Assembly: GCA_015055615.1 (NCBI GenBank)
Contig: SVHT01000002.1
Location: forward strand, 124,001-188,000
Origin: Clostridiales bacterium
GTDB lineage: Bacteria > Bacillota > Clostridia > Christensenellales > Borkfalkiaceae
Direction of reading: 5' to 3'
Length of the DNA: 64,000 nucleotides
Shown: positions 5,411-33,784 of the stretch, in pieces
Numbering within the stretch: position 1 is the first letter of the stretch
Layout of the letters: each line of letters starts with the position of its first letter
Translations under genes and position numbers: made by a program
The notes under the pieces: generated by a model
The model's database searches: none
What the model was told of the DNA's origin: nothing
The model's input: only the letters and a program-made list of their open reading frames with translations

Positions 5411-5433
5411 CGAAAAAACGAAATATAACGAAA

Positions 5434-5825: not shown

Positions 5826-8800
5826 ATGAAGAAAATTTTTAAGAAATTCGGTTTATCTTTGGCAGCTTTGGTTTGCGTAGCATGCGCAGGCTTTGGCATC
5901 GCGCTTAGTTCGTCCGAAAAGGCACAGGCTGCAAACGCAGTCGAATTGAACGCCGACAATTACTACATTGTTGGTGCGGGCGTTCGTCTTGTAAACGACG
6001 CCAACGGTTCGGGTATTCGTTTCCACACGAATCTTGACGTTGACGCTTACAGCGAAGTCGTTTCTTCGGGTACGTTGATTATTCCCGAAGTTCGTTGTGA
6101 CGGCGAGCTGACGTTGGACGATTTGAACAATCCGACGCAAACTAGACCTGCGCACATCGTAACGAAGGACGAAAAAGTAGACCTTTGGTACGACGCAGTT
6201 TATAACGACGTGACTTACAAGAGAACGACGGCGTATCTTTACGATATTCCCGAAACGGCTTACGGCGCGCGTATGGTTGCGGTTTCGTACGTAGAATACG
6301 CGAACGGCGACGTTGTCTACACGCCGATTAGCCCCGAAGTGTCTATGTCGGACGTAGCAACGATGGTGCTCAACAGCGAGTACGTCAGCGAAGAGACCAA
6401 AGCGCAAGTAGCTCCGTATATCGTGGACGACGTTAAGGTTAAGTACAATATGCCCGACGGTAGTGTGCAGACCGAAACGGTGGCATACGGTTCGAGAGTA
6501 AGCGGTCCTACATATGACGCAAACGTAAATGCTATTGCAAGCGCGACCGATCAATACGGCAACGAAATCAACCTTGCTAACTACGAGGCAACGTTGCCCG
6601 TAACGATTGATATCGAATTTGAAGCGGCTAAGATTGTTATTGCAGATAGCTCGATTACCGATACTAACAACCTTACCCTTTCGAGTAATGCGGCGGGCGT
6701 AACGGCTCCTGCTGGCTATAGCAGTGTAACCAACCTCTTCTCGGCAAGCGGTAACACGTGGTCGAGTAAGATTTTGGGTGATAGCGACTTTGCAAGTCAA
6801 AACCTTAATGCCTACAGCGAGGTTTGGTTTGCAATCATGATTGAAAACGGTCACTTCACGCAAACGGCTCCTACTTGGACGGATATCGACAGTGATTCCG
6901 CTAAAGTTTGGGTTGAGTTCCACTTGATTAGAGAAGCGGAAAGCACCTGGACGATTGAAATTTACAAAGACGGAACCCTTTGGGGTACGCAGACGGCTCA
7001 AAGCGGTACAACGATCGGGAATATTTTTAGCACCAGTAACGACGGTGGACGTATCGTTGTATATCAAAAGACGGACGGTACGAACTCCATTGCAGACGTA
7101 AACGTTTACGCTACGGAAGTTCGCGGTATATTCGATACGGGTATTAAAGATAACGCGGCGACGATTTGGAACCATATTTGGAACCCCCATTACTTCACGG
7201 GCGGTGGTTCACCGGAAGGCGCATATTCGGACGAAGAGGCACCTGCAGGTTTTGCGTATGTAAGCGAATATACCTGTTCGACTAAAGACTTTGGTGGCAA
7301 GTATGGTCACGTCAATGCAGCGGATATCAGCGGTTACAGCGACCTTTGGTATGCAATGAAGGTTGTAAACGTAACGGAAAACGGCGACGCGTATATCTAT
7401 CTCCAAGGCGCGCCTAATAGCGGTTATTATGGTAGTGAATGGGTATACGTTCATTATCATAACAACGGCGACGGTACTTGGACGAAGGATTACAGAACGG
7501 CTGACGGTTATTACAGTTCCGCAACGAATCATAATACGGGCATTACAGGTACGAAGTTGACCGACATAGTCGGTTGGAAATCTGGCGTTATGCAGGGTTC
7601 GTATCCCAGCGCGACGACGGGCAATACGTATACGGCATACTTCACCAACGTTATCGCACTTGATGCGAATGGCGACGCAATCGAATCTCCGAACCCTCCT
7701 TTCAGCGGTTCGACGGAATTTGATCCCGAAATCCCCACCAATGCAGTTGCGGTTCGTCACTATCCTTGGCGTGACGACAGATACACGAACGGCACAAACG
7801 AAGTGTTGACGGAGGGCGCACCCGAAGGGTTCTCCTCTGTATTGAAGCATACGTGGGAAGCGAGTAGAACGTCGGAATACACGTATTGTTTCGACACTAC
7901 GTTAGATATCACGAAATTCAGTGATTTGTATCTTGCAACGAAACAAGAAAACGGTACGCATATCTACGTTAAAAACAGCGGCGGGCACTATGCAGCCGGC
8001 GGTTGGTTGTACGCGCACTATACGCAGGTAAGTACGGGCGTTTGGAGCGTATCGTACAGAGCGGCTGACGGATACAGCAAGGACATCGCGCAGACGATTT
8101 CCGCAACCAACCTTAAGGCGTTGATTGACGGAAACCTCTACGGTCACGCAGATTCGGCGGGTATGGGTACGATTACCTACTGGACGGAAGTCCTCGGTGT
8201 TTCCGCTGTGCAGGACGAAAGAGTAATCTTCTCGGCGGTAGACGGCGCAATTAAGACTGATGACGCAGTAGGTGTTCCTGCTGGCTTTACCAGCGTGTAC
8301 AAGTACGAAAACTTTACGAAAGATAAGTTTGCGTCCTTTGATTTGGCGAACACGAAGTATGACACCATCAGCTTCGGTATGATTGCAGATAGAGACTTCA
8401 CCTTCAATGCGGGTTACAAATATACGATGCCCGATGAAGCAGAGGAAAGACCTACCACGTCTATTATGTACAACACGGGTAGTTATGCTCAAATGTATAA
8501 GGTAAACCTTACCAACAACCGCAACGGTAGTTGGACGGTAACGATGAACGTTAAACGTTGGGTATCTGCGCCTGCGGCGGGCGGTTCTTCCGCACAGATT
8601 GCTGATACGGAAACCTTCACGGCAACCGTAACGGGTAGCAGCCTTCAGACGATTATGCAGACGATTTTGACCCCGGCAAAGGGTTTGACGTTGTACGTAA
8701 CGGAAGTACGCGGTACGCACACGTGCGCGTCCTCTATTATTATATCTCTTGGCAACGGTCAGTTGCAAGAAGTCTGCGCAACCTGTGGCAAGCCTATGGC

Positions 8801-11800
8801 AGATCCCGTAGATTTTGAACACGGTATTGACCCTGAAGCGGTAATGGCAAACGACAGTATTTGGCGTGATAACAATTACGCGCTTAGCACGCCCGATCAA
8901 GAGGCTCCCGTTGGTTTCAACAACATTGAAATGTACAGATGGAACCATAACAGCGTGATCGTTAACGGAATGCCTTACGGTTCCACCAATAAAGATATGT
9001 CTTTGACCTGTCTTGACGAAGCGGATATTAGCGCTTACGACGAAGTATGGTTCGCGATGAAGAACGTAGGCGGTACGGGCTTCTACGTACGTAACGGCAG
9101 TAAGTATGAGGGCGAAGATTGGTTGTACTTCCATTTGGTAAAAGTGGATGACGCTTGGACGTTGTCCCTTAGCTCTCCCGACGGCTACGTTGCTACAAAC
9201 GTACAAACGGGTATCGTAGGCAATACGCTTAAAGACATTTTGCAATATCACGCAAGCACGGTTGAACAACCTTGGAACAGTGGTGCATATCCTACCAAGG
9301 CGGATGGCGATACCACGACGGACGTAAAGATTTACTTCACGGAAATTTTGGGTATTATCGGTTGCGAACATACCGCGGTAGAATACGTTTCCAACGGCGA
9401 CGGCACGCATAACGAAGTTTGCGATAACTGCGGTAAAGTATTGAATGCAAACGTAGCTTGTGCAGGCGGTAATGCTACTTGTACGAGCGCTCCTGTATGT
9501 ACGCTTTGTAACGAAGAATACGGTACGGCGCTTGGACATAAGAACGTAACCTGGAATTGGGGCGTTGCAACTTGTGGCGTCTGTGGCGAAGTCGCAGATA
9601 GGGCAGAAACGGTTGCGCCTAGCGCGATTATCGCTAGTTCTAACGCGAAACTTACGGTTTCGAACAACGCGGCGGGCGTAACGGCTCCCGCAGGCTTTAG
9701 CTCGGTTACCAACCTCTTCTCGGCAAACGGTAACACGTGGCCGAGCAAGATTTTGGGCGCTGCAGATTATGCGGCGGCTGATTTGAGCGCGTATGAAGAA
9801 GTTTGGTTTGCAATCGCAATCCAAAACGGTCACTTCACCAACACGGCAGACGGTTGGAAGAATCTTGACTCGGATGCTTCGTTGGTATGGATTAAGTTCC
9901 ATATGGTACAAACGTCGAGCGCAGTTTGGACGGTATCCATCTACGTAGGCGACGCATTGTACAAAACGTTTGAAAACAGACCTGGTAAAACGATTTATAA
10001 CCTTACCGAAAACAACAACAACGGTTTGAGATTGGTTATCTATCAACAGACGGACGGTACGAACTCCATTGCAGACGTAAACATTTACGCTACGGAAATT
10101 ATCGGTGTGTTTGACAACGGTATTTCCGAATATGCAACCAACGTTTGGGACCATATCTGGAATACGTACTACTTCACGGGCGGTGGTTCACCGGAAGGCG
10201 CATATTCGAACATGGCAGCTCCCGAAGGATTTAGCAAGGTAAGCGAATCTACCTGTTCGACTAAAGACTTTGCTGGCAGGTATGGTCACCTCAATGCAGC
10301 GGATATCAGCGCTTACAGCGATCTTTGGTATGCAATGAAGGTTGTAAACGTAACGGAAAACGGCGACGCGTATATCTATCTCCAAGGCGCGCCTGATAGC
10401 GGTTATAAGGGTAGTGAATGGGTATACGTTCATTATCATAACAACGGCGACGGTACTTGGACGAAGGATTACAGAACGGTTGACGGTTATTACAGTCCCG
10501 CAACGAACCATAATACGGGCATTACAGGTACGAAGTTGACCGACATAGTCGGTTGGAAATCTGGCGTTAACCAAGGTTCGTATCCTAGCGCGACGACGGG
10601 CAATACGTATACGGCATACTTCACCAACGTTATCGGCGTATTGTCATGCGACGGCGTTAACCACGGCGAAGACAAGATTGTTGCGAACGGTGACGGTACG
10701 CACGACGTACTCTGCCGTTGCGGCGCGGTTGTACAAGACAACGTACCTTGCTCGGGCGGGGAAGCAACCTGCCAGAGCGGCGCAATCTGTTTGTCTTGCG
10801 GTACCGAATATACCGCCGTTGCTGACCATACGGGTGGCGAGGCAACCTGTGAAAGCGGTCCCATCTGTACGGTATGCGGCGAAGAATACGGTGAAAAATT
10901 AGAACATACGGGTGGCGAAGCTACCTGTACGCAACAGGCGGTTTGTTCGATTTGCGGTCAGTCGTACGGCGAATTGCTTAGCCATAATCTTGTATTTGAA
11001 GACGGCGCAGTCGTAGGTCATTGTAGCGTCTGCGGTGAAGCGGTACTCAATATAGTCCCCACGTATGCAACCAAGGTATGGGACCATATTTGGAACTCGT
11101 ACTACTTCACGGGCGGTGGTGCCGCTGAAGGCGCATATGCGGACGGCGTAGCGGCTCCTGAGGGATTCTCGAAGGTAAGCTACTACGACTTCACCGACAG
11201 AAATTTCCCTAAGACGGGACATTTGAATAATTCCACGACCATCAGCAGCTACAGCGATTTGTATTTTGCAATGAAGGTTGTAAACGGTTCGGATATATAC
11301 CTTCAAGGTTGTCCTAATGCTGCACAGGGTTATACCGGCGGCAACTGGTTGTACGTACATATGTATCAGGCGAATGACGGTACGTGGTCGAAAGATTTCT
11401 ATGCAGCTGACGGTTTCGAATTTAAGGGCGTGCAGAAAGGTCTTACGGGCACGACGTTGCCTGCGTTGATGACGTGGGTAAGCGGCGTTAACACGGGTAG
11501 CTATCCTAGAGCTCTTGAAGGCGGCGCAACAACGGCAACGGCATACTTCACCGACGTTGTCGGCGTATTGAAGTGCGACGGCTCCAATCATACCGAAGAC
11601 AAGATGGTGTCGAACGGTAACGGTACGCATAACCTAGTTTGCCGTTGCGGCGAGGTTATAACCGCCAACATAGCATGTTCGGGTGGCGAAGCTACTTGTA
11701 CGGAGGCTGCGGTTTGCTCGGGCTGTAACGCACCTTACGGTTCTGCACTCGGTCATAACGGCGAATGGACGGTAAACGACGAATACTACTGTAATCGTTG

Positions 11801-14800
11801 CGATACCAACTTCGGCACGGTAAACACGAATCTTAACAAGCAGACGGTTGCATTGTTCACCAACGCATCGTCTATTACGGCAAACGCGGAAACGCCTTTG
11901 AGCGTTGATCTTTCCAGCGCAACCACGATGACGATGAACTTCGTAAGCGTGAAGTTGAACGGTAACGACTACGACGGCACGTTCGAAAACAACGTAGTGA
12001 CGATTAACGTTCTTCCTAGCAAAGTCTTCGGCGATTGCACGTTGGAAGTAGTGGTTAACGTTGAAGGTAAAGAATTCACAATCACGGTACCCGTTCTCGT
12101 TGTAACGAACAAGATTACGAACGCCCAAGGTATGTTGGATATGAAGTACGTACTTCGTGGCAAGACGAACGAGGCGAAGGTAGCGGACACGGCTAATCAG
12201 ACCGAAAACGTTATTATCTATCGCGGTGGCGATGGTGGCGCAGCGACGATGAACGGTGACGGGTATTACATGCTTGGAGACGACGTTTCCTTGGTGGCAG
12301 ACGGTGGTAGCAATACGGACGTATACGTATGGGGTACTAAGATTATTCCTTTCGTTGGTACGTTCGACGGTAACGGTCACGTTATCAACAACTTCGTGAA
12401 GACGAACTGGTTCAGCGGTCACGTATTGGAAGATACTTCCGTTACGGGTTCCTATGCAAACGAATTGGAAGGTTCGTTGTTCGGTGTTGTAAACGGTACG
12501 GTTAAGAACGTTGCGTTTACGAACGTTCAGCTTGGTATCTTCGCGAACATCGTACTCGACGGTACGGGCTACTTCGAAAACGTATACGTAGAAATCACCA
12601 ACTTGCATCATAACGCTAACGTGTACGTAGCACCTTTCTTCTGGCGTAATTCTGACACCAGCCACGGCGAGATGAAAAACGTTGTCTTCAACTTCAACAA
12701 CATCAACGCGTCGACTATTGCAACTGCGTCCACTCTTTACCCTGCGGCACTCGGTAAGTACTTCACGGCAGATAACGTAGCCGTTTACGGCTTCGATACG
12801 ACGTGGGTCAATGGTGACCGTGGTAACGTATACTATACAGACACAGCTGTAGACGGTAGCGAATACAACATCTACGTAAAATATACGGACGCTACGGAAA
12901 ACGGCGCTTCGTTCATGAAGGTTGCGCTCAGCGACGATATTTGGAAGATCGTTGGCGGTATTCCTTACCTCAAGAACGTGGAAGTAAGCGGCGAAGCGAC
13001 GAATCCTTCGGACAGCAACGACGCAGTTGCACCTGAGGGTGGCGCTGAGTACAGCCTCGTTTGGATGGGTAGCGGTTTAGCAGCGTATGAACCCGCGCAA
13101 TTTATCAAGGAAACAACCAACACGGCAGTTAGCGGTACGCTCGGTATCAACGCGGCAAATCTTAGCGGTGCAAATTGGTCTGATACGAAACAGATTATCG
13201 TTGGTTCGTATGATGCGTACGGCGACTACGTATCGGCAGAATTGACCGATAACGACGATTACGGTGTATACACGGTAGGCGAAACGATCTTCGTCCTTGC
13301 AGAAACGGATGAAGGCTTGATGTTTGCAGCACAGGAACTCTGCCGTCGCTTGTACGGTTGGAACCAGTATACCTACCTTGCATACGACTCCGGAGCAATT
13401 ACTTTCAATCAGATTGCCGCGATTGATGCGACAAACGTTGGCAACTATACCACGAGCATTACTTTCGCACAACGTTCTCCCGCAAACGACAATGGTTTGG
13501 GCACTCTTGAAAAGATCGACATGGGCTTCACGCCTGGTACGCCGTATATGTACCTTGTATCGATGCACAACTCGATGAACTACTTCGGCATAACGAGTAG
13601 CGACGAAGAAGCTGCACATGAGGATACTACGGCAATGACTTCTTGGTCTACGTGGAATTCGACGAGCTATCCTAATGCAACGATTGATTATGCGTTTGCA
13701 GACAGTGACACCCAGCTTTGCTACTTGGGTCATGGCGACCCGTCTACGTTCAGCGCAATGGTAGAACACGTAGTGAAGATTATTAAGGGTAAGAAGGCTG
13801 CCGTACCTGCGATGAAGGTTATCAACTTCATGGTAGAAGACAACAAAGACTACTGTACGTGCGATGCATGTAGCCAATTCTCGAACCCTGCGGTTACGCA
13901 GTTGCTCTTTGTGAACGCAGTGCAGAAGCAGTTGAATACGGATGGCGTTAACGTTGGTATCGAATACTTCGCATACAACGCATACTCGCCCGCTCCCGTC
14001 ATTTTGAGTAGCGAAGAAGCTAACCTTACCTCGATTGCAGGTACTCTGGGCTTGACGAGCGATCTCTATCAGACGGTAACGGTTACCTACGACGCTCCTA
14101 AGGATAAGGACGGTAACGACATTGGGTTGCAGGCGTCCGGTTACTACACGGCAAATACGGCTAAGGTTCTCAAGGCGGTAGAGGGTTCGCGTTTGTGGTG
14201 GACCAGCCACGAGGCTAACCACTCGTTCGAGCTTGAACACGTAGCAAACGCGCACATGTATCTTGCATTGCAGGCATGGATTGCAGCGGTCGGCGGTGAA
14301 AACATTGACGTATTCATGTATCAAGCGTCGTACAGAAACTACTTCTTCCCGTTGAATACTTGGGAATATCAGATTCTTTGGTATCAGTCGTTGAATAAAC
14401 TCGGCGTAAACAGCTATATGTTCAACCTTGGCGACGTACACAACAATGCTGATAAGCAAACTGCGTTCTCGGCGTTCAAGACGTACATCGACAGCCGTGC
14501 GCAGAAAGACTTGAACGTAACGTTTGATCAGTTGAAGGATGAGTTCTTCGGCGTGAACGGTTACTACGGCGCAGGCGGTCCTACGATGAGAACGTTCTTC
14601 GAAGAATTGGTATCGGTATACGAAAGCCATAAGCAAGACGAAGAGAAGCAGTTTGTTACAACGAATGCGTTTGCGGACAACACGAACACCTTGGGTATCT
14701 CGGATAACGGTGGTTATATTGCAAATTGGTGGTTGAACGACTTCAATCATTCGTCGAATCCGAATTACTACAGTTACGCTAGACAAGGTTTCTTCAACGG

Positions 14801-15616: not shown

Positions 15617-17416
15617 ATGAGAAAGAAATCTTTGATGAGACTGTTATCTTTGTCTCTTTGTGCGTTTGCGGCAACGACCGCAGTGGCTTGTGGCGGTGGC
15701 GGCGGTGGCGTTGTCAACGGCGGTAATACCAGTGGCAGCAGCACCAGCACCAGCACTCCTACGCCCGACGTTGGCGACAGCAGCAGTGACGTTGGCGGTG
15801 GTGATACGGGCGGTGATAGCACGAGTTCTCAAAAAACGCAGCTTCGCGTATATCACTATAACGCAGGTTATGGTCAGGACTGGGTATACGAGCTGAAAGC
15901 TAACTTCGAAAAAATGATGGCGAACGTTTCGTTTGAAGAAAACAAAATGGGCGTAGAAGTAACCATTACCGGTGACATGAACCAGAGAAACGCTGAGGCT
16001 TGGCGTGCAGAACCTTACGACGTGCTGTTCTTGGAAGGTCCTTCGGAATTCTACGGTATGATGGAAAAGGGTGTTGTTGCGCCTTTGGATAGCATTATGA
16101 CGACGCCGAACCCTGACGATAACAATCAGACGATCGAAGAAAAAATGACGCAACAGCAAAGAGATGCGTACAATCTTAACGGGCATTACTATGGTATTCC
16201 CCACTATGCAGGACACTACGGGCTTATCTACAACAAAGATATGTTCGATCAAAGAAACTTCTATTTCGCAAAAGATAAATCTATGGGCGATTTCATTTCG
16301 GATACGAACCCCGAAAAGACGCTTGGTCCCGACGGTAAGACGGGTGTAATCGACGGTATCGATTATTCCACCGACGACGGTTTGCCTACGACGTATGAAG
16401 AATTCTTCTACCTTTGCGAAGAAATCAACGCAAACGGTATCGACCCGATTTGCTGGCCCGGTGAATATTATCATCAGCACACCATGCTGTTTATGGATAA
16501 CCTTATCGCTAACCACGAAGGTGCAGAACAGATGAACCTTAACTATAGCATGGAAGGTACCGCAACGGATTTGATTAAGCTTGACGCGTTCGGCAATATC
16601 GTATTCGATGCTGAGGGTAACCCCGTAATCGACGACCCTCTTGAAATTACTTCCGCTAACGCATACGAATTGGCGCGTCAGGAAGGTAGATATTATGCGC
16701 TCAAGTTCATGGAACAGCTTATGACCAATACCGACTATTTCAACGAAACGGATAGCTTGGAAGATGTCGGTAGATCGCATATCGAAATGCAGCAGATGTT
16801 CTTGGAAAACGGTAGCCTTGGTTACAGAGAAAACGCAATGCTTATGGACGGTGTTTGGTGGCAGATGGAAGCAACCGCAACCTTCAACAACATGTCCGCA
16901 ATCGACCAAAAATGGTCTAAAGACAACCGTCATTTCGGTTGGATGCCTTTGCCTCAGGCAACGCAGGAAGATGCAGACGCTATCGCAAACGGCGACAGAA
17001 AATCGGTATTCATCGACTATTTGAACGCAGTTGCTTGTATTAAATCGAATACGCCTTCCGAAGGTGTAAAAAATGCAGCTCTTCAATTCTTGAAGTATGC
17101 GTATACCGACGAAGCGCTTGCTAACTTCACCTATACCACGGGTACGACGATCGGCGTAGAATATTTGGACGCAGTAGATCGTGCTAAATTGACGCCTTAC
17201 GAAAGAACGTTGGTTGACTACCTTGAAAAATCGGAAATCGTATATCAGGTTTCGGGCAACAAATTCTATGCATCGAACATTGCAAACTTGACGCCTAGCA
17301 AGAGATACAGTATTCTTGGTTATCAAGGCGCAGCAGAAGCGTTCTACGTTGACGGTATAACGGCAGAATATTACTTTACGGCACATCAGGCGGGTTATAA
17401 AGGCTGCGCTTGGTAA
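15617..17416 (+). CDS. ABC importer substrate-binding lipoprotein (carbohydrate type)
   Basis: A 599-residue lipoprotein. Residues 1-24 are a signal peptide ending in lipobox AVAC (C25), followed by a Gly run and a Ser/Thr/Asp linker to about residue 72. The rest fits a family-1 extracellular solute-binding protein: QLRVYHYNAGYGQDWVYEL, EVTITGDMNQRNAEAW, YDVLFLEGPSEFY, then YYGIPHYAGHYGLIYNKDMF, the usual 'looks plausible, take it inside' strand. It lies 9 bp before two permease genes, forming a binding protein-permease-permease operon. SD AAGGAGA precedes ATG 15617. It is longer than most family members (about 430-550). Ligand unknown; neighbours suggest a plant or host glycan oligosaccharide. 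Confidence 0.9.
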   Translation: MRKKSLMRLLSLSLCAFAATTAVACGGGGGGVVNGGNTSGSSTSTSTPTPDVGDSSSDVGGGDTGGDSTSSQKTQLRVYHYNAGYGQDWVYELKANFEKMMANVSFEENKMGVEVTITGDMNQRNAEAWRAEPYDVLFLEGPSEFYGMMEKGVVAPLDSIMTTPNPDDNNQTIEEKMTQQQRDAYNLNGHYYGIPHYAGHYGLIYNKDMFDQRNFYFAKDKSMGDFISDTNPEKTLGPDGKTGVIDGIDYSTDDGLPTTYEEFFYLCEEINANGIDPICWPGEYYHQHTMLFMDNLIANHEGAEQMNLNYSMEGTATDLIKLDAFGNIVFDAEGNPVIDDPLEITSANAYELARQEGRYYALKFMEQLMTNTDYFNETDSLEDVGRSHIEMQQMFLENGSLGYRENAMLMDGVWWQMEATATFNNMSAIDQKWSKDNRHFGWMPLPQATQEDADAIANGDRKSVFIDYLNAVACIKSNTPSEGVKNAALQFLKYAYTDEALANFTYTTGTTIGVEYLDAVDRAKLTPYERTLVDYLEKSEIVYQVSGNKFYASNIANLTPSKRYSILGYQGAAEAFYVDGITAEYYFTAHQAGYKGCAW

Positions 17417-17425
17417 GGAGGCACT

Positions 17426-18367: not shown

Positions 18368-18379
18368 GGAGGTGGAAAT

Positions 18380-19297: not shown

Positions 19298-19338
19298 GAA
19301 CACAAGTTTCAACAGTTAAATATTTAAGGAGATAGAAA

Positions 19339-22386: not shown

Positions 22387-22401
22387 TAGGAGGTGTGCGC
22401 G

Positions 22402-24645
22402 ATGAAATTAAAAAAATTAGCAGCTAGCTTGTTGGCGTTTTCCTGTCTTTTCGCATGCGCATGCGGTGATAAGGGTGGAAACGGTGTCGTTATTGGTGGA
22501 AATAGTAGCGATATAACCAGCGACAGCAGCGATATCGTTAGCGGAAGTGATAGTGGCGATAACGGCGATAACGGTAATACGTCCATCGGTGGTATCCTTA
22601 CCGAACCGGAAATTCCCGTAACGTACGTAGAAGGCACTTTGCACGACGTACACGTAAATTACGATGAACCCGTTTCCGACTTTGTTGTAAACGGTCAGAC
22701 GAATTACACCATCGTCATCGGTGGCGCAGACAGAGGTAAGGCGTCCGGTCTTTTGACGGAAAACATATTTAAATCTTGTGGCGCAAATATATCGGCTATA
22801 AACATCTCCGAACTTACGGAATTTAATGCAAATTCGCAGTACATTTTCCTTGGTTGTGAAGAATTTTTTGCACAATGCGGTGGTGAAATGCCCGATTACG
22901 ACACGATTGGCGTAGCCGGTTATCAAATTAAAACGATAGATAAGAGTATATTCATTAATGCTTATACCCTCCATGGTTGGCAGATGGGTGCGATTGCGTT
23001 CTTGCGCGAAACAATCGGTTACGATATGTTGGGGGAAGATTTAGTCGTTTATGAAATGGACGGTGAAATGGGTAAGAAGATGCCCTATATGGATATTTTA
23101 GAACGTCCCGACTTCGATTATCGCATCAACAGCGGCGTGGCTACGCAAACGGAAATTTTCGGTATGGGTTATACGTACGTAGACCCCATCATGAGCACGG
23201 GCGAATCGTGGGTACATAACGTGTACGACTTCATTTCCCTCGAAGAAATGGATGAAAACCCTGACTGGGGTTCCAATGATGCGACGCGTTGGCAGCTTTG
23301 CTATACTTCGCGTGGTAACAAGGACTCCTACAAGAAGATGGTTCAACATATTGCGGACAAGATTATCATGCACTTAAAGGATCATCCCGATAAGGATACG
23401 ATGATAATAGGTCAGCACGATATCGGTGCTGGCACGCCGATGGTACAAAACTGTAACTGTGCCGCTTGTCAAGCAAGCTACGACTACTACGGTACGTTCG
23501 GTGCGGCGTGGTTGTCTCTTTGTAACCGTGCGTCTATCTTGGTAGACGAATACTTGAAGACGGACGATGCAATCGCATTCTTCGGCGAAGTAAAGAAATA
23601 CAACCTTTTGCAGCTCGTATATCATACGCAGGTAAACCCGCCTATTGAAGGTGACCAAAACGGTTATATCTACGACGAAAACGGTCATGGTACTCCTAAG
23701 GTAGAAATGTGGTTCAACAACGACGGTACGATGGAAGCGTGGGAAGACGCTTGGTCGGGCGAGGATGAACTCTCGACGGAAGAAGCGGCTGTAAAAGAAT
23801 GGTCGGATAGATACGAACGTCTGTACGCGGCACCCAACGTACACTATATGTACGCAACGTCGGGAGCGGACTGGACGCACTCCTACTTGGATATTGAAAA
23901 TTACGGCTGGATGAACATTGCAAAAGGCTGGGCGGGCGTTAACAGCCACAAGGAAGGCGATGACAGAGGTGGTAATTTCTTCATTTGGGCGTATGCCTTG
24001 AACTCCGAATTTTACCTCTATCCCTACAACTCCTTTGATACCAGCTGGGAAACGACGAGATTCTTCAAGCAGCTTGGCGCGAAGTATATATTCTGGCAAG
24101 GTCTGTATCAAAACAAGAACAACTCAGGCTTTACCAAGCTTCGTAACTATTTGGACTCGAAGGTAGAATTTGACGTAAACGCAGACTATGAGTACTACGT
24201 AAACAAATTCTTCAAGTACTATTACGGCGTAGGTGGCGAATATTTGCAGCGTTTCTTCGACGAAGTACAGGCGCATTGCCGTTGGATTGAAGTAAACAAT
24301 AAAGTAAACGGTGGTATCCACAACAATCGACTCGGCTATGCAGAAAACTGGCCCGAAGGCACGATTAAGAGCTGGATAGATTTGTTGGCAGACGCGTATG
24401 ACGCAGTGGAACAAGAATACAAGGTAAGCGATCCTGAAAAGTATGAAGTTTACAAAAAGCATATTATGATTGAAGAACTTTTCCCCGTTTACGTACAGTG
24501 TACCACGTATGCAGCCTCGTATGCAGAGGCGGAATTGAAGGCAAAACGTAAAGCATTCTTGGAAAACTTCTACGCGCTTGGGAATGCTATCCACGCAGAA
24601 GGCCGTTTGATGACGATCATCACGGATGCTTGGGATTTGGACTAA
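22402..24645 (+). CDS. DUF4838-family lipoprotein with GH67 N-terminal-like domain
   Basis: A 747-residue lipoprotein. The signal peptide (LKKLAASLLAFSCLFACAC) ends at Cys 18 or 20, followed by a Ser/Asp/Gly stalk to about residue 65. Residues about 75-215 resemble the alpha-glucuronidase N-terminal domain (YTIVIGGADRGKASGLL, QYIFLGCEEF, AFLRETIGYDML). Residues about 225-600 fit DUF4838, including the characteristic CNCAACQASYDYYG, GQHDIG and a Trp-rich region. ATG 22402 is chosen because TAGGAGGT precedes it by 7 nt; a GTG nine bases earlier lies on that SD. The giant gene at 5826 ends in the same domain pair, so the cluster encodes two paralogues. Glycosidase activity is plausible but not shown by any motif I can verify. 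Confidence 0.82.
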   Translation: MKLKKLAASLLAFSCLFACACGDKGGNGVVIGGNSSDITSDSSDIVSGSDSGDNGDNGNTSIGGILTEPEIPVTYVEGTLHDVHVNYDEPVSDFVVNGQTNYTIVIGGADRGKASGLLTENIFKSCGANISAINISELTEFNANSQYIFLGCEEFFAQCGGEMPDYDTIGVAGYQIKTIDKSIFINAYTLHGWQMGAIAFLRETIGYDMLGEDLVVYEMDGEMGKKMPYMDILERPDFDYRINSGVATQTEIFGMGYTYVDPIMSTGESWVHNVYDFISLEEMDENPDWGSNDATRWQLCYTSRGNKDSYKKMVQHIADKIIMHLKDHPDKDTMIIGQHDIGAGTPMVQNCNCAACQASYDYYGTFGAAWLSLCNRASILVDEYLKTDDAIAFFGEVKKYNLLQLVYHTQVNPPIEGDQNGYIYDENGHGTPKVEMWFNNDGTMEAWEDAWSGEDELSTEEAAVKEWSDRYERLYAAPNVHYMYATSGADWTHSYLDIENYGWMNIAKGWAGVNSHKEGDDRGGNFFIWAYALNSEFYLYPYNSFDTSWETTRFFKQLGAKYIFWQGLYQNKNNSGFTKLRNYLDSKVEFDVNADYEYYVNKFFKYYYGVGGEYLQRFFDEVQAHCRWIEVNNKVNGGIHNNRLGYAENWPEGTIKSWIDLLADAYDAVEQEYKVSDPEKYEVYKKHIMIEELFPVYVQCTTYAASYAEAELKAKRKAFLENFYALGNAIHAEGRLMTIITDAWDLD

Positions 24646-24663
24646 TGGAAGGAGGAGAATAAA

Positions 24664-27600
24664 ATGAAGAAAATGAAAACATTACTTTTGACTCTTGCCC
24701 TTAGTTGTACGTTTGCTGCGACGATGGCGGCGGTTGGTTGCGGTGAGGACGGCGCAGTTTTGCCGCCTCCCAGCACCGATTCTAGCGTTGGTTCTAACGA
24801 TAGCGTTGGTTCTAACGATAGCGTTGATTCCAGTGTGGATAGCGGTTCGAGCGATAGCTCGGATTGGTTTGCCGGTCTGGATGAAAATCCCATCAGCATT
24901 CGTTTTACAACTTCTTATGTGGATGTAAAGCAATACGAAACCATAGACCTTGGTTGTGTTGTAAAAGGTACGACGAAAGCGGCAGTGCTTGAATCCTCTG
25001 ACGAATCGGTTGCTACGGTAGATGCAAACGGTATCGTTACGACGTACGGCAAATTGGGCGAAGCAACGATTACGGCGACGGTAGAAGGCATCAGTGCGAC
25101 GTGTACCGTTAAGGTAATAGAATCCGCTTTCGCACCCGTCATCGTATTGAACTCGAACGAGTACACGGTTGAAACGGGGGATACCTTGGAATTCAACGTT
25201 TCGGCTGAATGGAACAATATCGAGCTTGCGGAGGATATTGATTACGCAGTATCGTTCGCGCAGGATTCGCAAGGAGCAACGTCTGAAATCAGCGTGGAAG
25301 GTAACGTTGTGAAGGTTGTTGCCGGCGAAAACGCTGAAAGCTTTGACTTAATTGTTTCTGCAACGATTCGTGGTGTTTATACCAACGCTCGCATTACGGT
25401 CAACGTGGTTGGACAAACGTTAAAATTGCAATCGACGACCGCTGACTTCAAGCCCGAAATGGGTCAGTACGTAGCGAATATATACGCGACGGGCGAATAT
25501 GGCGACGTGAACAGTATTCCTCTCTCTTTTGTTGCGACGAAAGGCGGAAAAGAAGTAGCGGCGAATATCTCTTGGGAGATAAAAAGCACTACTCTTGAAT
25601 ATGCACTTGCTAGCGGCGAGGACGGCAACGCAGTTGCAATCGAAGACGGCAATATCGTAGGTAAAAAGAGAGGTTCCGCTATCCTTGTAGGTACGGCGGA
25701 ATTCGAAGGCGAAACGGCGACGGTAGAAATCCTTTGCAACGTAGAAGCAGTAGAAGTGCATTTGGAAGATAAAATCGATCCGATTGAAATAGCAAACCTC
25801 AAAACGTTTAATACGACGTCGTCGTTAATCGGTAGTTTGAAAAATGCAGAAATTCACGGCAGAGAAGTACACGACCGTATTGCGAAAACCAACGACGGTC
25901 GCGCAAGAGTTCAATTCTCGTCGAAGAATTTCCCTTCTACGGCAAAAGAATTGGGCGAGCAGCAGCTCGTTTTGAACACCGACCTCGTTCGCTATACGAT
26001 GGACGTGGAAATTTATACCATGGTTATCAACGACGCGACTGAACTTGACGCGATGAGAACGATGGCGGATACGGGCGAAACGGAGCTCAATTACAGATAC
26101 AACCAAATCAAACCTTCGCAGTATTTCGACGGATACTTTGTTTTGGGCAACGATATTGCTTATAACAAAGAAATCATGTCTATGACGGATACGGGTTCCG
26201 TATGGTGGTGTCAAGGTACGACGGATGACCATACCAGAGGGTTTAGAGGTGTATTCGACGGTAAAGGCTATAACATTGACGGTGTGACGGTGGGTTCGAA
26301 ACATCCTTCTGGTTCCGCTAAAGAAAGCGGTGGTATCTTCGGTTATCTTTCCAAGGAAGGTATCGTAAAGAACGTATCCTTTACCAACGCAGTATTGTGC
26401 GCAAATAACGGTTTTATTTGCTCGATGGGCGACGGTACGATTGAAAACGTAAGTATTTCGTACAAGAAAATCGGTGGCGACAAGGCAACGGAAAGCGTTA
26501 ATCCGACGAATAGTCTTGACGACATCCGTACGATGGGTTCGTTCTTCTCGTATAAAGCCGGTTCCAATGCAACGGTAAGAAACTGTCTTGTTGACGCATC
26601 TGCGGCAGATATCACGGAAGAAAAGGGTGTATTCAAAGGCACGAAGACCTACAACATCAACTTGATTGGTAAAGCGAAGAACATTAGCAACGTAATCGCA
26701 ATTTGTCCTAATCAGAAAGTTTTGGATACGTCGGGCGCTGATGTTAAGAAACTCAACTACGTAGAAATGTCGCAAGAAATCGAGATATTCAATAAATTCG
26801 ATTCGACTATTTGGACGACGGTTGAAAATATCCCTATGTTCGTGAACCAGGCGGAAAATCTTGACGTTAACGCGGAAGTTGGTTTCCTTAACGTGAAAGA
26901 CACGTTAGTGGCGGGCTTTGAAATGCTTATTCTTCCCAGCAATCCTTACGTACAGATTGAATTGGCGGAATTGCAAGGCGTTACGTACGAAAACAACTTG
27001 CTCAAAGCAACGGAAGAGGCGTTTACCAAGACGGCAGTGCTTACGGTAACCTCTTTGTTCAACCCTGAAATCACGGCGACGCACGAGGTTTATATTGACA
27101 GCTACGGCGAAGCAGTAGGCGTTCCCGGTGGTGGGTTTGCTACGGTAACGCACCAGAATAACGTCCTTACGCTGGGCGATAACAGCTGGATGGGCGATAC
27201 GAATTACGTATACATCGGCTCGGATGTTATCAGTATTGGCGATGGCGCAGAAAGCGTTGTTGTTGACATGGAAAAGCTTGTTTGGGGTGAACAAACCGTG
27301 ACGGTTGTCATGGTCAAGAATGGCGAAAGAACGCATTTTGACCTTACGTTGAACAAGTGGTTCGAGTCTGATGATTTTGCGAACAGCGAAGTCGTAGCCG
27401 ACCACGTATTCCACCAAGTACGTAGAGAAAACGGTAATACTAAGCTGGTGGAAGTTGCAGAAATTCCTGAAAACATCAAGGTGTCTGAAGACTATGAAAA
27501 CGTAACCAGAATGGACAGCTATACGCAGTGGACTTCGGCGTTAGGTAGAGAATTCTTCAACGATCAAGATGTCAGCGAGTATACAGATCTTTGGTTTGGC

Positions 27601-27921
27601 GTTGCAATTACCAACGGTCGTTTCATTTCGCAAGCGCAAGAAGTTCCCGCATCGTGGGTATATTTCCACTTCGTACAGGTAGTAGACGGCGAATGGGTTG
27701 CGGAAGTAACCATTGGCGGAAAATTATACAAGACGGAATTCAATATCGAAGGTACGAAGGTGCAAGATCTCCTTTACCGCGGTGGTTGGGCAACCGGTTT
27801 CTTGTGGTATAATAACAACGTAGGCGAAGATGACGTAAGCGAAGAAAAGCCGACCAGCATGTTTACGACGGAAATCCGTGGCGTAAAGAAAGCGGCAGAA
27901 GGCGCAGGAACGGAAGCATAA
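24664..27921 (+). CDS. Modular surface lipoprotein with Big_2 domain, GLUG/beta-helix region and C-terminal shared module
   Basis: A 1085-residue lipoprotein. The signal peptide ends in lipobox AAVGC; the stalk contains tandem SNDSVG repeats. Residues about 75-155 form a Big_2 Ig-like domain (ESSDESVATVDANGIVTTYG, ATITATVEG), followed by two further Ig-like stretches to about 365. Residues about 480-700 are a GLUG/beta-helix-like region (FRGVFDGKGYNIDGVTVG, GGIFGYLSKEGIVKNVSFTN) like that in the giant at 5826. Residues about 920-1075 are one copy of the shared ~165-aa module (LWFGVAITNGRF, SWVYFHFVQ, FTTEIRG). GGAAGGAGGAG precedes ATG, 18 bp after the previous stop. The likely role is a binding or scaffold protein at the cell surface. 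Confidence 0.85.
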   Translation: MKKMKTLLLTLALSCTFAATMAAVGCGEDGAVLPPPSTDSSVGSNDSVGSNDSVDSSVDSGSSDSSDWFAGLDENPISIRFTTSYVDVKQYETIDLGCVVKGTTKAAVLESSDESVATVDANGIVTTYGKLGEATITATVEGISATCTVKVIESAFAPVIVLNSNEYTVETGDTLEFNVSAEWNNIELAEDIDYAVSFAQDSQGATSEISVEGNVVKVVAGENAESFDLIVSATIRGVYTNARITVNVVGQTLKLQSTTADFKPEMGQYVANIYATGEYGDVNSIPLSFVATKGGKEVAANISWEIKSTTLEYALASGEDGNAVAIEDGNIVGKKRGSAILVGTAEFEGETATVEILCNVEAVEVHLEDKIDPIEIANLKTFNTTSSLIGSLKNAEIHGREVHDRIAKTNDGRARVQFSSKNFPSTAKELGEQQLVLNTDLVRYTMDVEIYTMVINDATELDAMRTMADTGETELNYRYNQIKPSQYFDGYFVLGNDIAYNKEIMSMTDTGSVWWCQGTTDDHTRGFRGVFDGKGYNIDGVTVGSKHPSGSAKESGGIFGYLSKEGIVKNVSFTNAVLCANNGFICSMGDGTIENVSISYKKIGGDKATESVNPTNSLDDIRTMGSFFSYKAGSNATVRNCLVDASAADITEEKGVFKGTKTYNINLIGKAKNISNVIAICPNQKVLDTSGADVKKLNYVEMSQEIEIFNKFDSTIWTTVENIPMFVNQAENLDVNAEVGFLNVKDTLVAGFEMLILPSNPYVQIELAELQGVTYENNLLKATEEAFTKTAVLTVTSLFNPEITATHEVYIDSYGEAVGVPGGGFATVTHQNNVLTLGDNSWMGDTNYVYIGSDVISIGDGAESVVVDMEKLVWGEQTVTVVMVKNGERTHFDLTLNKWFESDDFANSEVVADHVFHQVRRENGNTKLVEVAEIPENIKVSEDYENVTRMDSYTQWTSALGREFFNDQDVSEYTDLWFGVAITNGRFISQAQEVPASWVYFHFVQVVDGEWVAEVTIGGKLYKTEFNIEGTKVQDLLYRGGWATGFLWYNNNVGEDDVSEEKPTSMFTTEIRGVKKAAEGAGTEA

Positions 27922-28035
27922 AAAACAGCCGAAAAATCGGCAAAAATAATGGAAACGCGGTGGCGGCGGAACGAATAGCTCCGTCGTCCCTGCGTGGATA
28001 TAAAAAAGAAAAAATATTAAATTGGAGGGAAAAAT

Positions 28036-31000
28036 ATGACAAAAATGAAGAAAGTGTTATTGCTTGCTTTGTCTCTTGCTATGTCGGCAACGTTGTTTGC
28101 AGCATGTGGCAAAGACAACGGCGGTATCATTATCCCCGATTCTTCTACGTCTGTTGACGGCGGGTCCACGGATACTAGCGATTCCGTAGACGACAGCAAC
28201 TCCGTAGACGACAGCGACGGTAGTGACGATTCGTCCTCGGGTGAACCCGGTGTAACGAAATACACGTTCACGAAGATTGACGGTAACCCCAGAGATCCCA
28301 ACGCTGTGCTTTATACGGGAGAATTGGAGGCAGGCGAAACGCTTGACCTTACGCCGCCCGCAGAAACCGAAGGCAAGACGTTCAGCGGTTGGATTGACGT
28401 TGAAGGCAACCCGTTTGAAGGCACGACGATGCCCGAGGATCACTTGGCTCTGTATGCAACCTGGGAAATCACGCCGTACACGGTAACGATTAAGCAGGAC
28501 GGCCAAGAAGATAAGGTGCTTACGTTCGGTGTGCAACAGGATATCAACAAGGATATTATTGGCCTTGATACGATTGGTTGGAATGTAGAACTGGCTCTTC
28601 CCGAAGCGACGGATGACACTAGCTATGCATTTGCAGAAGAGTTGCCCGAAACGTGGGAATTGAAAAACTACGAATTCACGATCGTTGCAACGACGACGAA
28701 GTACACGTTCACGAAGATTGACGGCAACCCCAGAGATCCTAACGCTACGATTATTATGGAAAAGCTGGAAGTAGGCGCAGAGCTTGATTTGACGGCACCC
28801 GCAGCCGTTGAAGGTAAAGTATTCAAGGGCTGGGTAGACGGCGAAGGTAACGTATACGAAGGCGCGACGATGCCCGAAGAACACTTGACGTTGTACGCTG
28901 ATTGGGAAATTACGCCGTACACGGTAACGCTTAAATTGGACGGCGAAGATTACAAGACGTTCAAATTCGGCGTAGAATCCGATTACAATGACCTTGAAAA
29001 CCAGATTATCGGCAGAAACGAGCTCTCGTTCGTATTGGAAGGCGAACTTCCCGCGGCGGAAGGCGAAACCTACTACGAATTTGCAGAAGAACTTCCCGAG
29101 GCTTGGGGTTTACAGGACTACACGATTGAAATCGTTTCGAAAGTAAAGACGTACACCTTCACGAAAATTGACGGCAACCCTAGAATGGGCGGTGCTGTAA
29201 CGCAGGTTGAATTGAAAGCAGGCGACGCGCTTGACCTTTCTGCCCCCGCAGAAGTTGAAGGCAAAGTGTTCAACGGTTGGGTAGACGGCGAAGGTAACGT
29301 ATATGAAGGTACGGAAATGCCCAACGAAGAATTAACGTTGTATGCAGATTGGACGATTACGCCGTATACGGTAACGCTTAAATTGGACGGCGAAGATTAC
29401 AAAACGCTTACGTTCGGTGTAGAAGACGATTACACAGATCTTGAAAACCAGATTATTGGCATCAAGTCGATTGGTTTCGTTATTGAAGGCGAAATTCCCG
29501 AAGACACCAGAACGACGGTTTATACGGTAGAACTTCCCGAAGAATGGGCTTTGCAAGATTACGAAATCGAAATTACGGCCGAAAAAATTGACGACGAAGA
29601 CTTGGCGAGCTCGGTAAGCCTTTGGGATCGTTTGAACGCAACGATTACCGACGCAACGGGCGCAACCAAAACGAACAAAGACAACTATTGGGACGGTACG
29701 GAAAAATCGGTAACGGTTGAAAACCAGAAAGAAGTAACCAATGGTTCGGACTTTGCAAACAAACTCACGTTTGATTACAACAGATATTCCGAAGAAGAAA
29801 AGGCTGCTGGTAAAGCTTCGTATTCTGCTTGGAAAGGCGAAATGTGGGTAGGCTTTAAGGTTGCCGCAAACGGTATTGACCTTACCAATTACGAACTCGT
29901 TTTCGATATGAAGGGCGAAAACCTTAACACGAGCATTATCGCTTATGCGGTTAAGAACGGTAGCGACGGCGTTGACTTCGTAATGGGCGCGCATACGACG
30001 TTCAAACAGGCAGATATGGTAGACCTTGGCGACGGTTGGTATCGTTGGACGGTAACCGTAGATTGCAAGACGGCGGCAGGCAAAGCGGCAGATTATATCA
30101 TTTTGTCCCTTGACAACGCCCCTGATACGAGCAAGGAAACGGTTGTATACATCGACAACATGTCCTTAAACGAAGTATTCTACTATACGGCGAAATTGGA
30201 CGTTGACGGTGTAGTAACCGAAGAAACGATTAGAGGCGGCAGCGAATATACGCCCGCAATCCCTGAAAAGGACGGTTACGAATTCACTGGTTGGGTAGAC
30301 GCAGAAGGTAACGAAGTTACGACGCCTATCGCCGTAGACGGCGACGTTGCACTCTTTGCTACGTGGAAGAAACTTCCCATCGCTTTGACGGAATACAAAT
30401 CGGTGGCTATCGACCTTGGTCAGGCTGACTTTGACATTGTTTCCTTCACGGGTAAAGCTGGTACGTATAAGATTGCCACGGGTAACTATCTGAGACCGGT
30501 TACGATTGTTGATGGTCAAGTTGGCGAAGACATTACGGAATTCACCTTGACGGAAGACGGCGAAACGTATACCTTCGGTATTGCATATGGCGACGATGGT
30601 AACGAATGGTACACGACGGGTTCGGTTATCGTTACCGGTGTGCACGATGAACTTCGTCCTTATTTTTGGAGAGACGACAAATACGCGCTTACCGTTAATT
30701 CGGCAGAACCTGCACCCGCAGGCTTTACGAAGGTAAGCGAATTCAACTGGGGCAACAACGCAACGCTTGACGGCAATGGCATACCTTGGTCGCAGGGAGC
30801 AAAAGACTTCCCTTGCCATATCATCAGCGAGCAAGATATCAGCGCATACAAAGATATTTGGTTTGCAATGAAGCTGGTAGAAGGTAAGTCTTTCTACGTA
30901 CGCGGTGGCGATGAGTATTTGGGTACGGCATGGTTGTATTTCCACTTCCAGCAGGAAGAAGGCGGTACGTGGGCTCTGTCCTTGTATTCGGCAGACGGTA

Positions 31001-32793
31001 CGTACGTTAGAGAAAACGTGCAGACGGGCCTTGTAGGTTCGAACTTGCAAGTTTTGATGAGATACGGCGGTAATAGTGGCGCATATCCCACCAGAGACGT
31101 AACCAACCTTAAAACGATGGTTTACATAACCGAAGTATTGACGGATATACCTCCTTACGATCCCGAAGTTTCGGCAGAAGCAACCCAGCTTTCCGACTCT
31201 GCGTTTAAAACGGACGGCGCTACTGGCCTCGTAGAAATGGAAACGGTTACGGAAGCAGTTCCCAACGGCTTTAACAGCGTAAAAGGTTACTACACGGAAG
31301 GTAAGACTTGGGGTAGTTACATTTTGAACACAAACGATATGTGCGGTGAAACGATTAGCGCGAAATCTGAGCTTTGGTTTGCAATGAAGATTCAAAACGG
31401 TCAAATTTCCGAAACGCCCAGCTATGCTACGGTTGACGGATATAACGCAGATCCTTGGGTATACTTCCATATGACGCAGGCAAGCGATAAGACGTGGACG
31501 ATGGAAATCACTTGCAACGGCAATGTTTGGAAGACGATGTCTAATCAGACCGGCTTGACCTTTGGGCAACTCCTTGATACTTCCACCGACGGTAGCCGTA
31601 TCGTTATCTATCAGAACAGAGAGAACCTTGGCGAGCCCGTATATATCTACACGACGGAAATTATGTCTGTGGATAAGCCCTTAGAACCTTTCGATACGCA
31701 AATCGACGCAGAGGCTACGGTTGCATTTGACCACGTTTGGAATCCGTATTACTTCACGGGCGGCGGTCAACCCGAAGGTGCGTACGCTGACGTAACGGCA
31801 CCCGAAGGGTTCTCGAAGGTAAGCTATTATAACTTTACCGATGCTAACTTCCCCAAAGTTGGACATCTTAACGCAGAAAACCTTAACCAATTCAGCAAAG
31901 TTTACTTTGCAATGAAGGCGGTAAACGCTAGAGATATCTATTTGCAGGGTCATCCCGACCAGTGCTATGCGGGCACCGATTGGTTGTACGTATACATGAC
32001 GAAGGCAGAAGACGGTACTTGGACGAAGTCCTTCAGATCGCCCGACGGTTTCGAGTGGATTGACGGTCAGAAGAATCTTACCGGTACGACGTTGGCTAAG
32101 CTTATGCCTTGGGTATCAGGCGTTAACACGGGTAGCTATCCCAGAGCTATTGAAGGCGGCGCAACAACGGCAACGGCATACTTCACCGAAATCTTGGCGG
32201 TTAAGGATCCCTACAAGCCTACGATTTCTGCAGACGCAGTAAAAGTTTACGACAGCATTTGGCGCGCTGACGACTATGCGCTTAGCGCAACGACGGACGA
32301 AGCTGCACCCGCAGGCTTTACGATGGTTGAGGAATACGATTGGCTCCACAACACGACGATGGTAGACGATAAGACGGGTACGGGCAATACGATTCCTTAC
32401 GGTTCTAATGCAAACGATATGCCTTTGACTTGTCTTGACGAAGCGGATATGAGCAACCTTAACGAATTTTGGTTTGCAATGAAACTTAAAGGTGGCGATG
32501 GCTTCTACGTACGCGGTAGCGCCAAATATACGGGTGGTCAGTGGTTGTACTTCCACGGCACGCGCGCAGAAGACGGTACGTGGACGTTGGAACTTACTTC
32601 GCAGGACTACTTCACGGTTACGCAGACGGGTATCGCAAAAGAACTCTTGAAAGATATCATTCTCTATCACGCGAAATCCGAAACAGAACCTTGGGATGGT
32701 GGCGCATATCCTACCAAGACGGCGGACAGCGAAACGGCTATCGTATACTTCACCGAAGTTTACGGTATCCAGAAAACGGTTGCCGCTGAGTAA
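28036..32793 (+). CDS. Modular surface lipoprotein with Flg_new/InlB-type repeats and four shared modules
   Basis: A 1585-residue lipoprotein with lipobox FAAC and an Asp/Ser stalk (to about residue 72). Three ~148-residue repeats follow (about 74-223, 224-369, 370-510). Each carries a Flg_new/Listeria-Bacteroides-type motif (FxGWVDGEGNVYEGTxMP, TLYADWEITPYTV). Residues about 515-710 look like a carbohydrate-binding beta-sandwich (WVGFKVAANGIDLTNYELVF, GWYRWTVTVDC), followed by a fourth Flg_new unit (about 715-780). Four copies of the shared ~165-aa module end the protein (about 870-1040, 1044-1215, 1220-1393, 1394-1585). GGAGGG lies 6 nt before ATG 28036. No catalytic motif is seen; a multivalent glycan-binding role is inferred. 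Confidence 0.86.
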   Translation: MTKMKKVLLLALSLAMSATLFAACGKDNGGIIIPDSSTSVDGGSTDTSDSVDDSNSVDDSDGSDDSSSGEPGVTKYTFTKIDGNPRDPNAVLYTGELEAGETLDLTPPAETEGKTFSGWIDVEGNPFEGTTMPEDHLALYATWEITPYTVTIKQDGQEDKVLTFGVQQDINKDIIGLDTIGWNVELALPEATDDTSYAFAEELPETWELKNYEFTIVATTTKYTFTKIDGNPRDPNATIIMEKLEVGAELDLTAPAAVEGKVFKGWVDGEGNVYEGATMPEEHLTLYADWEITPYTVTLKLDGEDYKTFKFGVESDYNDLENQIIGRNELSFVLEGELPAAEGETYYEFAEELPEAWGLQDYTIEIVSKVKTYTFTKIDGNPRMGGAVTQVELKAGDALDLSAPAEVEGKVFNGWVDGEGNVYEGTEMPNEELTLYADWTITPYTVTLKLDGEDYKTLTFGVEDDYTDLENQIIGIKSIGFVIEGEIPEDTRTTVYTVELPEEWALQDYEIEITAEKIDDEDLASSVSLWDRLNATITDATGATKTNKDNYWDGTEKSVTVENQKEVTNGSDFANKLTFDYNRYSEEEKAAGKASYSAWKGEMWVGFKVAANGIDLTNYELVFDMKGENLNTSIIAYAVKNGSDGVDFVMGAHTTFKQADMVDLGDGWYRWTVTVDCKTAAGKAADYIILSLDNAPDTSKETVVYIDNMSLNEVFYYTAKLDVDGVVTEETIRGGSEYTPAIPEKDGYEFTGWVDAEGNEVTTPIAVDGDVALFATWKKLPIALTEYKSVAIDLGQADFDIVSFTGKAGTYKIATGNYLRPVTIVDGQVGEDITEFTLTEDGETYTFGIAYGDDGNEWYTTGSVIVTGVHDELRPYFWRDDKYALTVNSAEPAPAGFTKVSEFNWGNNATLDGNGIPWSQGAKDFPCHIISEQDISAYKDIWFAMKLVEGKSFYVRGGDEYLGTAWLYFHFQQEEGGTWALSLYSADGTYVRENVQTGLVGSNLQVLMRYGGNSGAYPTRDVTNLKTMVYITEVLTDIPPYDPEVSAEATQLSDSAFKTDGATGLVEMETVTEAVPNGFNSVKGYYTEGKTWGSYILNTNDMCGETISAKSELWFAMKIQNGQISETPSYATVDGYNADPWVYFHMTQASDKTWTMEITCNGNVWKTMSNQTGLTFGQLLDTSTDGSRIVIYQNRENLGEPVYIYTTEIMSVDKPLEPFDTQIDAEATVAFDHVWNPYYFTGGGQPEGAYADVTAPEGFSKVSYYNFTDANFPKVGHLNAENLNQFSKVYFAMKAVNARDIYLQGHPDQCYAGTDWLYVYMTKAEDGTWTKSFRSPDGFEWIDGQKNLTGTTLAKLMPWVSGVNTGSYPRAIEGGATTATAYFTEILAVKDPYKPTISADAVKVYDSIWRADDYALSATTDEAAPAGFTMVEEYDWLHNTTMVDDKTGTGNTIPYGSNANDMPLTCLDEADMSNLNEFWFAMKLKGGDGFYVRGSAKYTGGQWLYFHGTRAEDGTWTLELTSQDYFTVTQTGIAKELLKDIILYHAKSETEPWDGGAYPTKTADSETAIVYFTEVYGIQKTVAAE

Positions 32794-32854
32794 TTCCCTC
32801 TACGTAGTTTTTCCGTGAGAAACGCGGAAAAATGAAAACTAAAAACTAAAACGG

Positions 32855-32898
32855 CGTACCCATCTGCGGGCAAAAGCGGATGGGTACGTTTGTTTTTA
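32855..32898 (+). terminator. Strong terminator closing the giant-protein cluster
   Basis: A 13-bp stem, CGTACCCATCTGC (32855-32867) with GCGGATGGGTACG (32876-32888) and one G.U, then TTTGTTTTT. Confidence 0.88.
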
Positions 32899-33782: not shown

Positions 33783-33784
33783 TT

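Follow-up and report, generated by a model that had tools for sequence, protein, structure and literature searches.

The window analysed in this study is a stretch of 64,000 nucleotides from contig SVHT01000002.1 of a Clostridiales bacterium (family Borkfalkiaceae; assembly GCA_015055615.1, genome G000 below), and all coordinates are positions in it. It harbors a cluster of genes for exported proteins, a sugar importer and carbohydrate-active enzymes, in which a protein module of roughly 165 residues is repeated. A preliminary description had counted 13 copies in three exported proteins, and this was borne out by translation of the three open reading frames (ORFs): eight copies lie in a giant protein, one in lipoprotein LA and four in lipoprotein LB, all three carrying signal peptides or lipoboxes read by eye.

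Gene content and conservation of the locus

The genes, module copies and other features of the locus are as follows (aa, amino acids; ABC, ATP-binding cassette).

5826-15287, +, giant exported protein, 3153 aa (translation; signal peptide and beta-helix read by eye)
6633-7133, +, module G1, subtype B
7164-7661, +, module G2, subtype F (HIWN); 86% aa and 90% DNA identity to G7
7731-8207, +, module G3, subtype C (WRDD)
8202-8723, +, module G4, divergent subtype D; position shared by all five intact giants
8841-9359, +, module G5, subtype E; occupies slot 5, in which four species differ little at synonymous sites
9612-10112, +, module G6, subtype B
10143-10640, +, module G7, subtype F
11076-11573, +, module G8, subtype F; 68% to LB3; copy used for the structure model
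13692-14009, +, DUF4838 match in the giant, aa 2623-2728, E 5.5e-9
15617-17416, +, solute-binding-type lipoprotein (NgcE-like match of 48 bits, far below the curated cut-off of 399.65)
17426-18367, +, ABC permease, BPD_transp_1
18380-19297, +, ABC permease, BPD_transp_1
19339-22386, +, exported 1015-aa protein; Ig-like match slightly below cut-off; syntenic in G023
22393-24645, +, DUF4838 protein, 750 aa, E 6.7e-18, lipoprotein by eye
24664-27921, +, LA lipoprotein, 1085 aa; scaffold judged beta-helix-like by eye, and C-terminal module
27406-27891, +, module LA1
28036-32793, +, LB lipoprotein, 1585 aa; Flg_new repeats followed by four modules
30649-31155, +, module LB1, subtype C2
31189-31677, +, module LB2, subtype B
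31723-32208, +, module LB3, subtype F
32227-32775, +, module LB4, subtype E
32853-32890, +, terminator-like hairpin 3' of LB, 15 pairs (consensus match alone; 16 such sites in the region versus 18.4 in shuffles)
33009-40099, +, enzyme genes: AP_endonuc_2-type protein, Gfo/Idh/MocA, GHL6/GH29-like, CE15, GH29, alpha/beta esterase
41112-43310, +, GH31 enzyme

The giant consists of a signal peptide, an N-terminal domain, the eight modules with Cys-rich linkers, a beta-helix-like stretch and a C-terminal DUF4838 region. Linkers with CxxC motifs lie between G4 and G8 (12 CxxC in the giant frame, with a 60-nt repeat, D5) and, judging by their sequence, are possibly metal-binding or disulfide-bonded. 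Just 5' of the giant, positions 4892-5410 (+) encode a small lipoprotein composed mostly of DDSVS/NDDSVS repeats; an opposite-strand ORF (4771-5589) antisense to it is probably no gene. In LB, a further unnamed sandwich-like stretch (aa ~511-730, window 29566-30225) lies 5' of the modules and is found in three of the five LB-like ORFs examined; a relationship to the module was rejected (hhalign probability 0.6%). An Rfam search and a PDB search with the 750-aa DUF4838 protein gave nothing useful, and no SLH anchor domain was found in the own genome.

The locus runs from an AraC regulator on the minus strand through the giant, the solute-binding lipoprotein, the two permeases, the 1015-aa exported protein and the DUF4838 protein to LA and LB, and continues 3' of LB with genes for the AP_endonuc_2-type protein, Gfo/Idh/MocA dehydrogenase, GHL6, CE15, GH29, esterase and GH31; a promoter-like site (by consensus alone, with totals not above those in shuffles) lies 5' of the gene following the LB hairpin. 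These gene scans support the previously described position next to a sugar importer and show a glycan-degrading neighborhood. In genome G023, the order from AraC to LB is kept and is followed by AP_endonuc_2-type, dehydrogenase, GH31 and GHL6 genes, while no match for the CE15 or esterase gene was found at this locus and GH29 was weakly matched elsewhere. Identity between the window and G023 is 36-57% for genes of the surface proteins and importer, 74-84% for the four downstream genes and 58-59% for the regulator; locus L037 of genome G441 shows 86-92% identity to the window in the downstream genes and 58% in LB.

The DUF4838 profile matched the giant with 36.1 bits and the 750-aa protein with 65.3 bits (cut-off 26.6), and the CE15 gene product matched 8q6s_A (E 1.7e-65) and the glucuronoyl esterase OtCE15A (E 9.1e-54). 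As CE15 relatives act on plant glucuronoyl esters, this match points to a plant polymer as the substrate. DUF4838 is listed as GH163 in a table of PMC9870897, and a GH163 enzyme that removes LacNAc antennae from mammalian complex N-glycans is described in PMC10154615. This activity on mammalian glycans, the divergence of the surface and importer block relative to the downstream genes, and a 2198-aa frame of genome G437 in which modules are joined to BspA-type LRR_5 repeats would fit modules acting as adhesins for host mucin glycoproteins or other bacteria, with arrays diversifying under host or competitor pressure and not for feeding. However, the modules sit within a sugar-uptake and enzyme cluster, the CE15 match points to a plant polymer, and divergence is as rapid in the importer genes as in those for the surface proteins; an adhesin function is distinctly improbable.

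Homology and predicted fold of the module

Alignment of the 13 stretches yielded one family with a common core, comprising the motifs P-x-G-F, D-[IL]-S-x-Y, [VL]-[WY]-F-A-x-K and W-[LV]-Y-x-H, an invariant W and a terminal Y-x-T-E-V-x-G. The shared pattern described earlier was recovered in this core, but its 'YFTEVLG' end proved to be Y-x-T-[ED]-[VI]-x-G (Y in 83 and T in 84 of 86 copies), and the reported size of ~165 residues is an approximation to a range of ~150 to 181 aa. In a leave-one-out analysis, the profile of the other twelve copies was used to score the left-out copy and 1000 shuffles of it: 12 of the 13 copies reached 55-165 bits, while the top shuffle over all 13 sets reached 15.5 bits. 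The remaining copy, G4 (8202-8723), scored 14.8 bits, above its own 1000 shuffles (at most 10.5) but below that single best shuffle of another copy. Its membership was rescued by its relatives, since slot 4 holds a D-type module in all five intact giants and in one that is truncated, and the six group in a single clade (100/98). The copies therefore align as one domain, as had been proposed, and belong to one homologous family.

The fetched contigs together contained 91 domain rows in 27 ORFs, of which 86 near-full-length copies were kept for a tree and five covering fewer than 100 profile positions were dropped. Clade letters were assigned by hand from this tree, in which 46 of 83 inner branches are well supported; the subtypes first defined by their openings match its clades. 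Conserved residues alternate with buried ones over the 86 copies: E/D61 (in 70), W/Y63 (61), K67 (65), Y93 (56), H95 (59), Y157 (83) and T159 (84). A 14th copy in the own genome lies outside the window, on contig C1 (47812-48306; L049:9806-10336, minus strand), in a small lipoprotein with repeats resembling leucine-rich ones (by eye) whose gene adjoins NAD-synthetase-like and sugar-epimerase-like genes (names by eye). Comparable open frames with one module, 422-490 aa long, are present in G023, G437, G441 and G446; together with the C1 copy, their modules make up a single clade of five.

A structure model of copy G8 (predicted local distance difference test, pLDDT, 89.8; predicted template modelling score, pTM, 0.87) contains about ten strands, and each module is thus predicted to be a beta-sandwich of ~165 residues, in agreement with the repeated beta-sandwich first suggested; this model superseded a Chou-Fasman average of 25% strand and 6% helix. 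A separate model of G4, whose input alignment included other copies, was weaker (pLDDT 77.2, pTM 0.75) with the same strand order. Of the 50 VIA-align entries listed for the module model, 14 were GH43 (C-terminal part), 14 legume-type lectins, 4 sialidases and 4 GH16 by hand grouping, and the others were 3 GH131, 3 PL14, 2 DUF1080, 2 ERGIC-53, 2 SPRY, 1 amylase complex and 1 phage tailspike. Most of these listed neighbors belong to the broad concanavalin-A-like lectin/glucanase class, within which we take legume lectins, GH16, the GH43 C-terminal domain and DUF1080 to fall. In addition, TtX122 domains of Teredinibacter (PDB 8q2a, 8q29 and 8q28), titled domains of unknown function, made up five of the first 20 Foldseek rows, a likeness that is a lead only (E 0.02-0.1, template modelling score <0.4).

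The absence of a recognised Pfam family, noted at the outset, held for all 13 window copies: none matched a Pfam-A family above its curated score (two families gave chance matches, best E 0.036) or an NCBIfam family (best E 0.07), and no convincing PDB sequence match was obtained, even with a 48-copy profile. These sequence searches covered the carbohydrate-binding modules (CBMs) present in Pfam or PDB. PDB sequence matches to a retinoic-acid-binding protein, BH3703 and Protein L were rejected, being partial, with E values of 0.09-0.28 and no contextual link. Among the open-access papers listed, no title or opening of an abstract describes the module, which has no name to serve as a search term. 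The many lectin- and glucanase-type sandwiches among the listed neighbors would suit a relationship to an already known CBM or concanavalin-A-like family that is too remote for profile searches. However, the lack of a sequence match in all three libraries, and scores to solved structures near background, make such a distant membership somewhat unlikely.

Module order, exchange and distribution

The modules are arranged in ordered arrays. The subtype order is B-F-C-D-E-B-F-F in the own giant and A-B-C-D-E-B-F in G023, from which the other giants differ in slots 2 and 3 (G441), slot 3 (G446) or slots 2, 6 and 7 (G437), while all five intact giants share D in slot 4 and E in slot 5. Within the own giant, G1 and G6 are 57% identical in protein and 64% in DNA, and stretches of the G1/G6 and G2/G7 pairs recur at a spacing of 2979 bases; the likeness of these pairs and the common spacing suggest an internal duplication. 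G8 groups in the tree with LB3 and an LB copy of G441. The fifth module of the LB homologue in G441 (L037, contig C17, ~3534-3752) is broken by a stop codon and looks decayed.

Among the own, G023, G446 and G441 giants, identity is 77-86% in slot 5 and 73-81% in slot 6, compared with 48-57% in the C-terminal 830 residues; with G437, the values are 56-60% for slot 5, 31-34% for slot 6 and 41-46% for the C-terminal region. In all ten pairs of giants, slot 5 shows greater likeness than these C-terminal residues, as does slot 6 in six of the ten, and a block within the C-terminal region (own aa ~2781-2940) is as conserved as the two slots (65-86%). Synonymous divergence (dS) in slot 5 is 0.37-0.56, versus 1.48-2.26 in the C-terminal region and 1.04-1.60 in the N-terminal part, and four-fold sites are equal at 284/364 in slot 5 versus 406/871 in the comparison, summed over six pairs; this analysis excluded G437 and slots 1, 2 and 8, its pairs are non-independent, and NG86 dS values are crude at such distances. 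As the low-divergence tract roughly coincides with the borders of module 5, these sequences suggest that module 5 was recently exchanged between species; synonymous constraint on slot 5 is an alternative explanation. In slot 6, the nonsynonymous divergence is low (0.135-0.181) at a high dS (0.76-1.25) among the four species, which looks like purifying selection. Taken together, our comparisons demonstrate synteny of the locus, subtypes with preferred slots, and duplication and exchange of modules.

These arrays also bear on whether the modules are mainly structural, as stalk or spacer units that distance catalytic and scaffold domains from the cell wall and aid the assembly of surface proteins. 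The array is indeed flanked in the giant by the N-terminal region on one side and the DUF4838 region on the other, its modules are duplicated and shuffled, and no ligand-specific match was found in the searches. The fixed slots of subtypes D and E and the conservation of slots 5 and 6 relative to the C-terminal region argue against such a role, and the single copies capping LA and the small lipoproteins make poor sense for a stalk; a mainly structural function is unlikely.

Modules and DUF4838 share one chain in the own giant, the G446 giant (L039) and a 1602-aa frame of G034, which is cut by the contig end and represents a differently built architecture with seven modules before the DUF4838 region. 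All six LA homologues of at least 51% identity, from five genomes including the own, carry the module; genomes G437 and G034 contain modules but no LA homologue at this threshold. The module is absent from all ten LA-like paralogues that were fetched (27-33% by blastp), whose ends are beta-helix-like by eye. A DUF4838 gene lies directly upstream of the LA-like gene in 10/10 loci (L131-L140), seven identified by a Pfam scan of the neighboring ORF and L132, L133 and L136 by the coordinates of DUF4838 matches. DUF4838 and an LA-like beta-helix lipoprotein thus form a recurring surface pair in the genus, in which the module replaces another C-terminal domain in LA. DUF4838 occurs in 43 of 57 genomes of the genus, some matches lying in open frames of more than 1500 aa, with 8 matches in the own genome and 22 in G013 (counts that may include pieces of one protein); it is expanded in the genus and not tied to the module.

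The module was found in 7 of 57 genomes of the genus, own included, and in a family sample in 5 of 201 genomes and 2 of 18 genera; such counts refer to sampled genomes, with some first-look candidates left unscored (9 of 17 scored for the own genome in the order sample). In the second genus, an LA homologue (41% over 664 aa) has a module at its end and an AP_endonuc_2-type gene beside it; this genus also contains a three-module frame and, in another genome, one short weak match. In the order (396 genomes) and phylum (398 genomes) samples, the own genome alone was recovered. A divergent profile, A6, matched five of 396 order and three of 291 class genomes at E <= 0.01, own included, and the alignments in the five other genomes were all partial and low-scoring and were taken as chance. 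Searches of viral contigs, and of plasmids and phages with one module (LB3) as the query, gave nothing useful. A contig scan with a single degenerate peptide pattern returned three loci in metagenome-assembled genomes of Clostridia from roe deer caecum and sheep colon. The wide occurrence in Clostridia that had been envisaged was therefore not observed: in the genomes sampled, the module is restricted to two genera of one bacterial family.

Putative function and significance of the module arrays

The modules form a real domain family that is undescribed within the searched libraries and most likely CBM-like. Like beta-sandwich CBMs, the module is predicted to be an independent sandwich, repeated in extracellular proteins of a carbohydrate cluster and in surface lipoproteins. 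It is also, as CBMs are by definition, a discrete domain linked to carbohydrate-active enzymes: it shares a chain with DUF4838, a predicted enzyme-like region distinct from the repeat, in two architectures, and is clustered with CE15, GH29, GH31 and the ABC importer. Unlike CBMs, it has no family-level sequence match, is confined here to one bacterial family, and occurs in arrays of up to eight with slot-specific subtypes.

We infer glycan binding, multivalent capture and subtype-specific specificities, as binding fits both the fold class and the genomic context. Further support for a CBM-like role comes from the conserved residues that alternate with buried ones, from the apparent purifying selection on slot 6, and from the presence of the module in all six LA homologues as against none of the ten LA-like paralogues. 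Probably, the module represents a new domain family that works like a CBM and helps to hold a branched polymer at the cell surface. Arrays of seven or eight modules precede the GH163-type DUF4838 region of the secreted giant, with four or five on LB and one capping LA, encoded beside the second DUF4838 protein; the modules would jointly hold the polymer through numerous weak interactions that differ in specificity, as it is cleaved by enzymes and the fragments are imported by the neighboring ABC transporter. A more elaborate version, which we consider rather unlikely, is an ordered surface reader array in which the slots recognize separate parts of a single complex glycan, and lectin-like modules are swapped between slots, cluster proteins and species by recombination, so that diet is retuned by module exchange while the enzymes change much less.

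With these results, the surface machinery of uncultured gut Clostridia that have relatives in sheep and roe deer gains a domain family as yet without a name, for which a confident structure model and 86 aligned copies of nearly full length are available. DUF4838 and the LA-like lipoprotein also stand out as surface proteins that recur as a pair in the genus. Should the modules prove to bind sugars, they would make up a new CBM family, whose subtypes would offer a naturally occurring series of related but distinct binders. The main interest of the family lies in its slot-ordered, exchangeable array, and slot-wise exchange frames the question of whether gut bacteria change their glycan specificity by swapping single binding modules.
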